The notes under the pieces are model-generated. The model ran no database searches. It had not been told where the DNA came from and worked only from the letters and a program-made list of their open reading frames with translations. A stretch of 64,000 nt of DNA from Pyrodictiaceae archaeon (GTDB lineage: Archaea; Thermoproteota; Thermoprotei_A; Sulfolobales; Pyrodictiaceae), in the NCBI GenBank assembly GCA_027036135.1, contig JALVSY010000030.1, forward strand, positions 124,001 to 188,000, written 5' to 3'. The position numbers and the translations under genes were made by a program. Every line of letters starts with the position of its first letter. Position 1 is the first letter of the stretch. Of this stretch, positions 7,487-57,198 are shown one piece after another.

Positions 7487-8608
7487 TTGGGGACAATCTG
7501 TCTCCTAGGATTTGGCCGCATAGGCGAGATGACTGCGCAATTTCTGCGAGAAAGCGGGCTAGCACCAATAGTATTTGATGCATCGGGTGAACGGGTTAGG
7601 AGAGCTGAGCGCCTAGGCTTTGAAGCCCACCTCGCAGATGTAAGCGAATCCTCTGCGGCCGAGAGGGTTGCCGCCGAGTGTGATATAGTAGCAACAGCGC
7701 TACCAAGTAATGTCGCCGAGAAGGTGCTCTTGAACCTAATTAGTGCAAGCATACCAGTAATAGTTGACGTATCCTATCTGCGCGATCCACTGCTCTTCAA
7801 AGAAAAAGTCGTAGAGGCGAGGGTCAAGCTTTTTGTCGATACAGGGCTTGCACCCGGCTTATCAAATATGTTAGCTGCGAGAGCATGCGAGCAAATGGAT
7901 AAGTGCAATAGCGCTGAAATCTATGTTGGCGGTATAGAGGAGAAACAGACAACTCCTCTAGGCCTTGTAGCTTCTTGGTCTATAAGCGATCTCTTCGAAG
8001 AATATACGAGAAAAGCTAGGGCAAGGCTCCTTGGCCAAAACGTTCTCCTAGACCCAATAAATGATATGAAGAGACTAACTCTTCCAGGGCTTGGAGAGTT
8101 TGAGGCACTGCCAACGGATGGACTCAGAACACTTCTATTAACGCTACGAGACGTTGACAACCTTGTTGAGTATACGCTGCGCTACATAGGGCATGTAGCA
8201 GTTATAAAAATGCTTAGAGAAATGGGGCTCCTCGATACTCGTAGCTATGTTGTTGGGGGCTGCGCTGTATCTCCCCGAGACTTCTTCGTAAAGATGTTGG
8301 AGGAGCGACTACCGAAGAGAAATGACCGCGTTATACTCTATGTTAGGACCCAAGGCACTAAATCCGACAAGTACGTAACCATCGAGTATATTCTCGACGA
8401 GAATCAGAAGCAACTAGGCATAGAGAAACCAGTCCTAGCCTACTTGACTGGGCTCGTACATGCATGGTTCGTCATACAAGCCTCAAGAGGAGCAGGTCAT
8501 ATAGGCCTAAATGCTCCCGAGGAGCTTGCCGAAAATCTCAATGATCTCCTTAGATTCCTTGAGGCGCGGAACGTGCTTCTACAGAGAAGACAATGTGTTA
8601 TACAATAG
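7487..8608 (+). CDS. Saccharopine dehydrogenase-like NAD(P)-dependent oxidoreductase
   Basis: This 373-residue protein opens with a Rossmann fold: ICLLGFGRIGEMTAQFL, whose GxGxxG-like turn is GFGRIG. It then has the family pattern ADVSES, CDIVATALPSN and VDVSYLRDP, followed by a GLAPGLSNMLAARA motif. This matches the saccharopine reductase/lysine 6-dehydrogenase superfamily, which oxidises or reduces amino-acid C-N bonds. The natural substrate cannot be told from sequence. The start is TTG 7487, directly before GTICLLG; no strong ribosome-binding site is visible. Confidence 0.75.
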   Translation: MGTICLLGFGRIGEMTAQFLRESGLAPIVFDASGERVRRAERLGFEAHLADVSESSAAERVAAECDIVATALPSNVAEKVLLNLISASIPVIVDVSYLRDPLLFKEKVVEARVKLFVDTGLAPGLSNMLAARACEQMDKCNSAEIYVGGIEEKQTTPLGLVASWSISDLFEEYTRKARARLLGQNVLLDPINDMKRLTLPGLGEFEALPTDGLRTLLLTLRDVDNLVEYTLRYIGHVAVIKMLREMGLLDTRSYVVGGCAVSPRDFFVKMLEERLPKRNDRVILYVRTQGTKSDKYVTIEYILDENQKQLGIEKPVLAYLTGLVHAWFVIQASRGAGHIGLNAPEELAENLNDLLRFLEARNVLLQRRQCVIQ

Positions 8609-26749: not shown

Positions 26750-26827
26750 GGGCCCGTCGTCTAGCCTGGTTAGGACGCCGCCCTGACACGGCGGAGGTCC
26801 GGGGTTCAAATCCCCGCGGGCCCACCA
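26750..26827 (+). tRNA. tRNA-Val (GAC anticodon), CCA encoded
   Basis: The cloverleaf is complete. Acceptor GGGCCCG (26750-26756) pairs with CGGGCCC (26817-26823), with A as discriminator and CCA encoded at 26825-26827. The anticodon stem CCGCC/GGCGG encloses loop CTGACAC with anticodon GAC (26785-26787), which reads valine codons. The T-arm is CGGGG-TTCAAAT-CCCCG. There is no intron. The D-arm (26755-26766) is perfectly complementary to a guide element of the sRNA at 55803-55862. Confidence 0.96.
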
Positions 26828-54496: not shown

Positions 54497-55723
54497 CTAG
54501 CTCCTCGATGGCTTAACAGGTAGAATTAGGCGTAGACCTTCAATTTTGGATGAGTATTCCGAGATATTGATTCCAAGTTTTTGGACAAGTTCTGTAAACT
54601 CTCCAGGCTGATAGGGGCATGCAGGATCCTCGCCCAGAGGGTCAGCTTTCAGGGTATAGGCGCGTGCTCTGCTTCCACCGCATATGTCTCTGAACTCGCA
54701 TATTCCGCATCTGCCCTTGAACTCGGCTGAGCGGATCTTTCGTAGGACGGGATGCGTTCTATATATCTCAACGAGGCTCTTCGTCCTGACATTCCCCAAG
54801 GGGTATGGCATGAAGCCACTAGGGTACACGGTACCGTCGTACGCGATAAAGATTATCCCCTTACCGTCACGTGTCCCCGTAGTAGCTACCATAGGACGTG
54901 TCTTTGGTTCTCCTAGCAATTCCTTGAGCCTATTATGCAGGTAGTCATAGAGCTTGCCTAGTCTAAAGAACTTCATGTAATCTATGCCCCTAGACTCCAA
55001 AATAAGACGCGTCAGAGCTATGCGCCTAAACATTGGGCCCTCTGTTGTTCTTACAACTATGCCGTATTTTGATACATCGTATAAGAAGTTGCTGACATCC
55101 TCCCACTCCTGCGGTGTTAGATCTAGTTCTTTTTGTGCACGTCCGACGGGTATAAGGTAGAAGACCTCCCACGTCTTAATACCTATATCATTTAGTAACT
55201 TAGCGATATCTGCCAAGTCTCTGGCATTATCACGCATTACGGCTGTATTTACTTGTACACGTATACCTCTCTCTACCATTTGCTTAAGTATGTTAACTGT
55301 TCTTTGGAAGTGACCCGGTATACCCCTAATATTGTCGTGGATCTCTGGTCTACTTCCATCAAGGCTTATGCTAACACTTATTTCCCTAGACTCTATCTCG
55401 TTAAGAGAGTTCTCTAAGATATTCGTCACGGCTGGAGCTAATGCGACCCTTACCTTTCTTTCAATCGCGTAGTCTACTAGTTCCCAAATATCTTTGCGCA
55501 TTAGCGGGTCTCCACCAGTGAATACTAGTATTGGGCTTGGTTGCCCGAACCTTGCTACGTCGTCTATCAGTTTCTTGCCTTCTTCTGTGTTTAGCTCACC
55601 TGGTAGCGGGTTGAGTATCGCGGATGCTCTGCAATGTTTACAAGCTAGCTTACAAGCCTTGGTTGTTTCCCAGAATACTAGTAAGGGCTTTTCGTCGAAA
55701 GGCCATCTCGTGGCGGTATGCAT
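54497..55723 (-). CDS. ahbD: Radical SAM/SPASM protein, probable AhbD (heme synthase)
   Basis: The 408-residue product has LLVFWETTKACKLACKHCRA with the CxxxCxxC cluster and SPILVFTGGDPLMRKDIWEL. The auxiliary-cluster C-terminus reads CGICEFRDICGGSRARAYTL and EDPACPYQPGEF. AhbD oxidatively decarboxylates iron-coproporphyrin III propionates to make heme. It is the first gene of the three-gene heme operon. ATG 55723 is chosen because GAGGGTA lies just upstream and the TATA box (55773-55783) sits inside the longer open frame that starts at GTG 55789. Confidence 0.78.
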   Translation of the reverse strand: MHTATRWPFDEKPLLVFWETTKACKLACKHCRASAILNPLPGELNTEEGKKLIDDVARFGQPSPILVFTGGDPLMRKDIWELVDYAIERKVRVALAPAVTNILENSLNEIESREISVSISLDGSRPEIHDNIRGIPGHFQRTVNILKQMVERGIRVQVNTAVMRDNARDLADIAKLLNDIGIKTWEVFYLIPVGRAQKELDLTPQEWEDVSNFLYDVSKYGIVVRTTEGPMFRRIALTRLILESRGIDYMKFFRLGKLYDYLHNRLKELLGEPKTRPMVATTGTRDGKGIIFIAYDGTVYPSGFMPYPLGNVRTKSLVEIYRTHPVLRKIRSAEFKGRCGICEFRDICGGSRARAYTLKADPLGEDPACPYQPGEFTELVQKLGINISEYSSKIEGLRLILPVKPSRS

Positions 55724-55772
55724 ACTGGTACCCTCTATCCATGATGTAAACACTTGTTTAAGCTGAGACAAT

Positions 55773-55783
55773 CTTATATAATT
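55773..55783. promoter_or_regulatory. Symmetric TATA box shared by ahbD and a C/D box sRNA
   Basis: CTTATATAATT reads as AATTATATAAG on the other strand, a good box A both ways. Rightward it predicts a transcript start at about 55804, the 5' end of the sRNA. Leftward it predicts about 55752, giving ahbD a leader of about 30 bases with a ribosome-binding site. Confidence 0.5.
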
Positions 55784-55802
55784 TTTCACTGAATGATTTG
55801 CG

Positions 55803-55862
55803 CGGATGATGAGGCTAGACGACGCAGAGTTTCCTCAATGAAGAGGCGCTGGGGGCTGAACA
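55803..55862 (+). ncRNA. C/D box small RNA with a guide matching tRNA-Val
   Basis: C box ATGATGA (55806-55812) is perfect and D box CTGA (55856-55859) lies at the usual 54-base distance. Between them a probable D' (CAGA, 55825-55828) and a degenerate C' (CAATGAA, about 55836-55842) separate two guides. The D' guide (55813-55824) is perfectly complementary over 12 bases to the tRNA-Val D-arm at 26755-26766; by the D+5 rule this would point to G10 of the tRNA. A TATA box 26 bases upstream gives it its own promoter. The internal boxes are weak. Confidence 0.7.
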
Positions 55863-55869
55863 CCTAGCT

Positions 55870-57198
55870 CTATGGGACTAGTCTCTCAGGGTCCCTTGGC
55901 AACAGCCTTGCCTCTCTGATATTGCCGAGACCAAGGAACTGCATTACTACGCGCTCTAGCCCTATTCCTGCACCTCCGTGAGGTGGTGCACCGTAGCGGA
56001 ACATAGCTAGATACCATTCAAAGTTCTTTGGGTTAAGACCCTTCTCTTGAAGCTGGCTAACAAGTACCTCATAGCGATGCTCACGCTGTCCTCCCGTAGC
56101 TATCTCTAGCCCACGGAATAACAGATCAAAACTATATGTCCAATCGGGTTCATCGCTCTTCCTCATCGTATAGAATGGACGAACCTTCCAGGGATACTCC
56201 GTGACGAAAACCAGGGGTGAACCATACTCTTTGAGCACTATTTCTCCGAGCTTTCGCTCAGCCTCACTGCTTAGATCCTCGCCTTCTTCTATGCTTACCC
56301 CTGCACTTCTTAGGAGTTTATAGGCCTCACGTATCGTGATTCTCGGTACAGTGCGCGGCACCTCCATTAAGGCATCGGAGAAATACTCTTGAACCCTATC
56401 CTTATATTTTCCTAAAGCCGACCTTATCATTGACAGCACGGCGTTCTCCGCCACTTTCATCACATCCTCGTAGCTATCTATGAACCCCATCTCGAAGTCC
56501 ACGCTTGTGTACTCAGTTAGATGTCTAGTAGTGTGATGTGGTTCTGCCCTAAAGGCAGGCCCTACCTCAAATACCTTCTCGAACCCGGCTATTACGCCCA
56601 TTTGTTTATAGAGCTGGGGCGACTGGGCCAAAAATGCTGGGCGATCAAAATATACTATGCTAAAAACCTCTGCTCCACCCTCGGTGGCTGCGCCAACTAT
56701 TTTAGAGGTATAGATCTCAATGAATCCGTTGCTGTGGAAGAATTCTCGAGCAGCTCGAGCCATTTCTGCTTCAACAAGGAATATGAGTTGGTTCCGAGGA
56801 TGACGTAAGTCAAGGAAGCGCCAGTCAAGTCTCTTTGCAAGAGTTGTTTTACTTGGGTCTTTTATATCAATAGGTAGCGGTTCTGCCCTCGAATATACTA
56901 CGAGTTCCTCAACTACTATCTCTCTACCACCAAGTGCAGCCTTGCTCTCAACAAGGGTTCCTCTAGCCCCGATAACGCTCTCTGGCGATAACTTCTTTGC
57001 CTCCCTCCAGGCGGTTTCGGACACGTTTTTCTTTACAACCAGCTGCATTTTACCAGTTCTATCCCTAAGCACTATGAATACTAGCTTACCATGTACTCTT
57101 ATTGTGTCGACCCAACCTGCTACGACGTATTTTTCCCCTATCTTTGCGTTCTGAAGTAGCTCTGCAATGTACCTTCGTTCAGCAAGTCGTATAGCCAT
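55870..57198 (-). CDS. aspS: Aspartyl-tRNA synthetase
   Basis: The 442-residue class IIb synthetase has an N-terminal OB-fold anticodon-binding domain (KYVVAGWVDTIRVHGKLVFI, about 20-110). The catalytic core has motif 2 (FRAEPHHTTRHLTEYTSVDF) and motif 3 (GIGLERVVMQFLGLGNIREA). The length and the absence of a bacterial insertion domain make it archaeal type. Whether it also charges tRNA-Asn cannot be told here. ATG 57198 (MAIRLAERRYIAEL). A TCTTAAAGG TATA element lies at about 57229-57237. Confidence 0.95.
   Translation of the reverse strand: MAIRLAERRYIAELLQNAKIGEKYVVAGWVDTIRVHGKLVFIVLRDRTGKMQLVVKKNVSETAWREAKKLSPESVIGARGTLVESKAALGGREIVVEELVVYSRAEPLPIDIKDPSKTTLAKRLDWRFLDLRHPRNQLIFLVEAEMARAAREFFHSNGFIEIYTSKIVGAATEGGAEVFSIVYFDRPAFLAQSPQLYKQMGVIAGFEKVFEVGPAFRAEPHHTTRHLTEYTSVDFEMGFIDSYEDVMKVAENAVLSMIRSALGKYKDRVQEYFSDALMEVPRTVPRITIREAYKLLRSAGVSIEEGEDLSSEAERKLGEIVLKEYGSPLVFVTEYPWKVRPFYTMRKSDEPDWTYSFDLLFRGLEIATGGQREHRYEVLVSQLQEKGLNPKNFEWYLAMFRYGAPPHGGAGIGLERVVMQFLGLGNIREARLLPRDPERLVP

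Follow-up and report, generated by a model that had tools for sequence, protein, structure and literature searches.

Archaeal C/D box sRNAs form ribonucleoproteins with L7Ae, Nop5 and fibrillarin, and these particles add a methyl group to the ribose facing the fifth nucleotide of the guide (PMC7994747, PMC4644070). Guidance of tRNA methylation in this manner is established for Cm34/Um39 and Cm56 and has been suggested for G18 (PMC6313347, PMC7912444). In the papers covered here, positions 18, 34, 39, 50 and 56 are guided or suggested tRNA sites, and computed sites include 16, 26, 32, 35 and 47 (PMC7668247, PMC6313347, PMC7912444); mass spectrometry did not reveal several of the C/D targets computed for P. 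furiosus tRNAs (PMC7668247).

The locus described here lies in a 64 kb stretch of DNA from a Pyrodictiaceae archaeon (hereafter the window; the genome itself is designated G000). It resembles the known C/D guides for tRNA, such as the tRNA-Trp intron responsible for Cm34/Um39 and the suggested G18 and position-50 guides, in box layout, guide length, the N+5 rule and the use of a tRNA as substrate. As in the guides described in Pyrobaculum (PMC7994747), a single guide matches several tRNAs that share a sequence, and its partner guide is an orphan. The difference is in the target, which is here G10 in the D-stem, a residue absent from the C/D-guided positions listed in the papers covered here. 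The same nucleotide is the substrate of archaeal Trm11, the m2G10/m22G10 methyltransferase, which supports the D-arm as the proposed guide would. However, Trm11 is a protein-only enzyme that acts on N2 of the base, whereas the route proposed here is RNA-guided and directed to the ribose, and both could act on one residue.

Anatomy of the sRNA gene

The coordinates of the relevant features are given in Table 1. The sRNA reads ATGATGA, GGCTAGACGACG, CAGA, GTTTCCTCA, ATGAAGA, GGCGCTGGGGG, CTGA, and thus contains the terminal C (RUGAUGA) and D (CUGA) boxes of archaeal C/D box sRNAs as well as internal D′ and C′ boxes and two guides of 12 and 11 nt, within the usual size of around 10–12 nt. Boxes and guide are conserved above their flanks, and the D′ and C′ boxes, each with one mismatch to the consensus, are retained or improved in homologs. 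The first-pass annotation had proposed a C/D box sRNA gene with perfect C and D boxes at 54-base spacing, and both statements hold, the distance from the start of the C box to the end of the D box being 54 nt. The composite motif C-guide-D′-C′-guide-D occurs once in 64 kb. A TATA box had also been noted. The element is present, but its centre lies 29 nt before the C box and not at the 26 bases claimed. TATA-like sites are likewise found 27–32 nt ahead of the C box in several homologs (G003–G006, G008, G010, G127 and G207–G209).

Table 1. Features of the sRNA locus, its neighbors and its predicted tRNA target (positions in the window).
Feature	Position	Strand	Remarks
C/D box sRNA core, C box to D box, 54 nt	55806..55859	+	boxes read in sequence; homologs in 12 other family genomes
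TATA box CTTATATA	55773..55780	+	centre 29 nt upstream of C box
C box ATGATGA	55806..55812	+	perfect to RUGAUGA
D′ guide GGCTAGACGACG, 12 nt	55813..55824	+	complementary to tRNA nt 6–17
D′ box CAGA	55825..55828	+	one mismatch to CTGA
Variable loop GTTTCCTCA between D′ and C′ boxes	55829..55837	+	6–34 nt in homologs
C′ box ATGAAGA	55838..55844	+	one mismatch to RTGATGA
D guide GGCGCTGGGGG, 11 nt	55845..55855	+	conserved in 12/13 family homologs
D box CTGA	55856..55859	+	perfect
Aspartate--tRNA(Asn) ligase gene	55870..57198	-	NF003483, E 5.5e-171; 3′ end adjoins sRNA gene, opposite strand
TIGR04053-type radical SAM/SPASM gene, divergent neighbor	54497..55789	-	
tRNA-Val(GAC) gene with encoded CCA, predicted target	26750..26827	+	
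Complement of D′ guide CGTCGTCTAGCC, tRNA nt 6–17	26755..26766	+	12/12 pairing
G10, predicted 2′-O-methylation site	26759	+	N+5 rule

The gene is flanked by the divergent TIGR04053 gene on one side and by the 3′ end of the aspartate--tRNA(Asn) ligase gene on the other, both on the minus strand. The true start of the TIGR04053 gene is probably downstream of the listed GTG.

A chance resemblance in a sequence that is not a gene might be invoked, as no Rfam family scores above threshold at the locus (within the window, Rfam reports tRNA only). We give this explanation almost no weight: none of 60 first-order Markov sequences holds the motif, boxes and guides are conserved in 13 genomes while the loop has diverged, and the TATA box is kept in several of the homologs. 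Judged by its sequence features, the segment 55806–55859 is an archaeal C/D box sRNA gene of the usual type, preceded by a promoter of its own, and its transcription is predicted.

The D′ guide and its tRNA matches

The D′ guide had been reported as exactly complementary to tRNA-Val at 26755–26766, with other tRNAs as possible further targets. Both observations were confirmed. The 12-mer at 55813–55824 (a 13-mer if counted from 55812) is the sole 12-mer in the window that is antisense to tRNA-Val. When GGCTAGACGACG was compared with the tRNAs of the genome, pairing was complete (12/12) with Val(UAC, GAC, CAC), 11/12 with Gly(GCC, UCC, CCC), and 11 Watson–Crick pairs plus one G-U with Pro(UGG, GGG). 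Two further tRNAs, which contain introns and which we read as tRNA-Gln, their anticodons having been mis-called by ARAGORN, paired at 10/12. The D-arm of the predicted substrates is GTCGTCTAGC. When 400 shuffled guides were compared with the full tRNA set of the genome, none reached 12 pairs. As a side observation, partial tRNA pieces (Arg-like and Asn-like) are found elsewhere in this genome, at C7:609714–609774 and C7:921661–921716, and are perhaps attachment-site remnants of integrated elements.

Archaeal C/D guides are recognized by at least 9 continuous Watson–Crick pairs to a stable RNA that span the N+5 nucleotide, and 12 such pairs are found at tRNA-Val. The prediction of G10 as the target by the five-bases-from-box rule also stands, as the N+5 nucleotide is G10 in all ten predicted targets (three Val, three Gly, two Pro and two Gln). 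The accompanying statement that G10 is normally base-methylated needs qualification. In Val and Gly, G10 has C25 as its partner; the Pro and Gln tRNAs have U25 instead, the type of substrate used by Trm11. The reported m22G10 occurs where nucleotide 25 is U (PMC7668247).

The guide might instead act as a tRNA folding chaperone, or in trafficking or processing, with no methylation of G10 in vivo. Roles other than methylation exist for C/D RNAs (PMC7994747), and Trm11, by methylating the base of G10, already promotes folding of the D-arm (PMC5485724). However, the boxes and the length of the guide are typical of active guides, and N+5 points to a single nucleotide, identical for all of the matched tRNAs and for all of the independent sRNAs. 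We therefore regard a purely non-methylating role as very unlikely and favor a guide for G10.

rRNA and the D guide

A better match in rRNA had been named beforehand as grounds for considering the tRNA match accidental. In this genome the 16S gene is masked, as is the 23S gene in its 5′ part, and rRNA was therefore searched in four relatives from the family whose 16S-23S operons are complete. The best matches of the D′ guide in these operons were 7 continuous Watson–Crick pairs, or 8 within a 9-pair run, and 105–160 of 200 shuffled guides did equally well. Since such matches are at chance level, the relatives' operons hold no better match than tRNA-Val nor any significant 16S or 23S match of the kind expected from a guide for rRNA, and rRNA was rejected as target of the D′ guide.

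A further possibility is that the sRNA is real but has been selected for its D guide, which would act on rRNA or another target, so that the tRNA match of the D′ guide is incidental. The conservation of GGCGCTGGGGG in the family, nearly equal to that of the D′ guide (12 of 13), speaks for it. Nevertheless, the D guide yielded no convincing target among the tRNAs of the genome or in the four rRNA operons. Pairing with the 3′ end of tRNA-Ser plus the CC of CCA (10 Watson–Crick pairs and one G-U) was discarded, as 47 of 400 shuffles (12%) equalled it, and so was the 23S segment GCCCCAGCGGG, with 8 pairs only, a chance-level match. The best rRNA match of the D guide, of 8 bp, was equalled by 165–170 of 200 shuffles in the three sRNA-bearing genomes. 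Exact targets of the D guide sought genome-wide included none that is shared, and in G007 the sole match is the sRNA itself. Furthermore, the only homolog with an altered D guide, that of G017, keeps its D′ guide unchanged, and the D′ guide recurs beside wholly different D guides in families f10, f3 and f7 and occupies the D position in family f22. Selection for the D guide alone is hence highly unlikely to explain the locus. A guide that is conserved but has no convincing target fits the pattern of tRNA-directed sRNAs, which usually have one orphan guide (summarized in PMC7994747).

Conservation within Pyrodictiaceae

The sRNA is present in 13 of 20 Pyrodictiaceae genomes, and several of the remaining seven are incomplete. 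In those 13 the D′ guide core GGCTAGACGAC is intact, while the length of the loop that separates D′ from C′ ranges between 6 and 34 nt. Alignment of 12 homologs revealed variation of the D′ guide at a single base, adjacent to the box, in G008. The sRNA core of G009 is identical to that of G000, and the D′ box is CTGA in G014, in G015 and in each of the four f10 homologs. In the homologs of genus g6 (L170, L172 and L173), the D′ and C′ boxes are separated by an insert that is rich in GC and resembles a hairpin, with a loop of 26–34 nt compared with 6–22 nt in the others.

In G011, a nearly complete genome of the family, the same tRNA sequences are found but the sRNA was not detected. Hence, the modification would not be universal even in Pyrodictiaceae. 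From its persistence in 13 genomes despite the variable loop, and from its recurrence in unrelated sRNAs (see below), the alignments indicate that the D′ guide is under selection.

Recurrence in other families

A pattern made of C box, guide and D′ box, with one mismatch at most, was searched in 214 genomes of the order together with a reversed control. Matches were obtained in 24 genomes, and the control gave none. A search of the phylum covered 398 genomes and gave one control match. The outcome can be summarized as follows:

(i). By inspection, credible sRNAs outside the family are found in f10 (4/4 genomes), f3 (G033 and G035) and f7 (G127). They share the D′ guide and differ in the D guide, which is TAGTGGAAGGY or GAGCGGAAGGG in f10, GAAGGCGCCK in f3 and AAGAACCGGCT in f7. 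The target sequence is present in the tRNAs of the six genomes checked from these lineages (6/6).

(ii). Matches in G041 and G057 probably represent coding sequence and were discarded, and those in G064 and G144 are doubtful. Two matches in G498 from the phylum search were also rejected.

(iii). Genus g89, of family f22, shows a match in all 11 genomes sampled. A stretch from one of these genomes matches Rfam Pyrobac-1, and the genome is therefore Pyrobaculum-like. Two sRNAs are involved: in one, GGCTAGACGAC followed by A or G serves as D guide and matches C9 tRNAs; in the other, the D′ guide is GGCTAGACTAAG, which matches A9 tRNAs. The latter pairs over 10 continuous bases with the tRNA-Glu-like D-arm GGTAGTCTAGCC of one A9 tRNA of G229. 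In G229 and G264 (L180, L181, L192 and L193), sister sRNAs divide the D-arms by nucleotide 9, one through D and the other through D′. A tRNA-Glu-like gene of a Pyrobaculum-like genome (L228, minus strand near 8247) appears to contain several introns.

(iv). An A9-type guide, GGCTAGACTACG, is found in G446 and G379.

A guide directed to tRNA is expected to change with the tRNA sequence, and the C9 and A9 versions of f22 do so, the A9 case resting on one tRNA of G229. Such a parallel change of guide and tRNA at nucleotide 9 would be difficult to account for if the guide were directed to anything but the tRNA.

Discussion

The explanation that we consider very probable, on the basis of sequence, is that the locus encodes an ordinary C/D sRNP guide that would be transcribed and would direct formation of Gm10 in Val, Gly, Pro and Gln tRNAs. 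The sRNA would assemble with L7Ae, Nop5 and fibrillarin, whose genes are assumed to be present in G000. Its D′ guide would pair with nucleotides 6–17, opening the D-arm of unfolded precursor tRNAs, and fibrillarin would methylate the ribose of G10, which pairs with the fifth base of the guide counted back from the D′ box. The need for an opened D-stem counts against this explanation. The benefit of Gm10 may lie in stiffening of the D-arm and in protection from hydrolysis near 100 °C.

As m22G10 is reported where nucleotide 25 is U (PMC7668247) and m22G is described as unable to pair normally with C (PMC9957541), Val and Gly tRNAs would carry Gm10 or m2Gm10, and m22Gm10 may be formed in Pro and Gln. 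In P. furiosus tRNA-Glu, a ribose-methylated, multiply methylated G10 has been tentatively reported (PMC7668247).

C/D-guided methylation of tRNA is known, and what appears to be new is an sRNA aimed at G10, a site unlisted in the literature found, although it may already have been predicted. A literature search did not yield position 10 as a C/D-guided tRNA site, the Pyrobaculum guide survey lying outside its scope, and none of the papers listed by a text search used the term "Gm10" with tRNA and archaea. That survey, by Lui et al. in 2018 (doi 10.1093/nar/gky284), reportedly covers six species and 110 families of C/D sRNAs, tRNA targets included. As the f22 homologs are Pyrobaculum-like, their guides are probably among those families, and G10 may already be predicted there as a guided site.

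A broader proposal is that G10 is ribose-methylated by an RNA guide across several Thermoproteota families, with Trm11 adding to it to yield m2Gm10 or m22Gm10 in Pro and Gln tRNAs, and with sister guides partitioning the tRNAs by nucleotide 9. We put this forward tentatively, as a possibility that leans towards the doubtful. Whatever its extent, one guide recurring in unrelated sRNA bodies is a clear example of a guide that was either reused or reached by convergence.

The tRNA of P. occultum is rich in 2′-O-methyl nucleosides, m22Gm among them, and the enzyme that methylates the ribose of m22Gm26 is listed as unknown (PMC6313347). Pyrodictium-type tRNA stays folded near 105 °C largely through its 2′-O-methyl groups, and some of the enzymes responsible, that for the ribose methyl of m22Gm among them, are unknown (PMC6313347). 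The guide names a site (G10), a set of substrates (Val, Gly, Pro and Gln) and a negative set (the other D-arms), and the origin of some ribose-methylated guanosine thus becomes directly testable. If the broader proposal is true, m2Gm10 or m22Gm10 in Pro and Gln tRNAs would account for some of the doubly methylated guanosines of bulk Pyrodictium tRNA.
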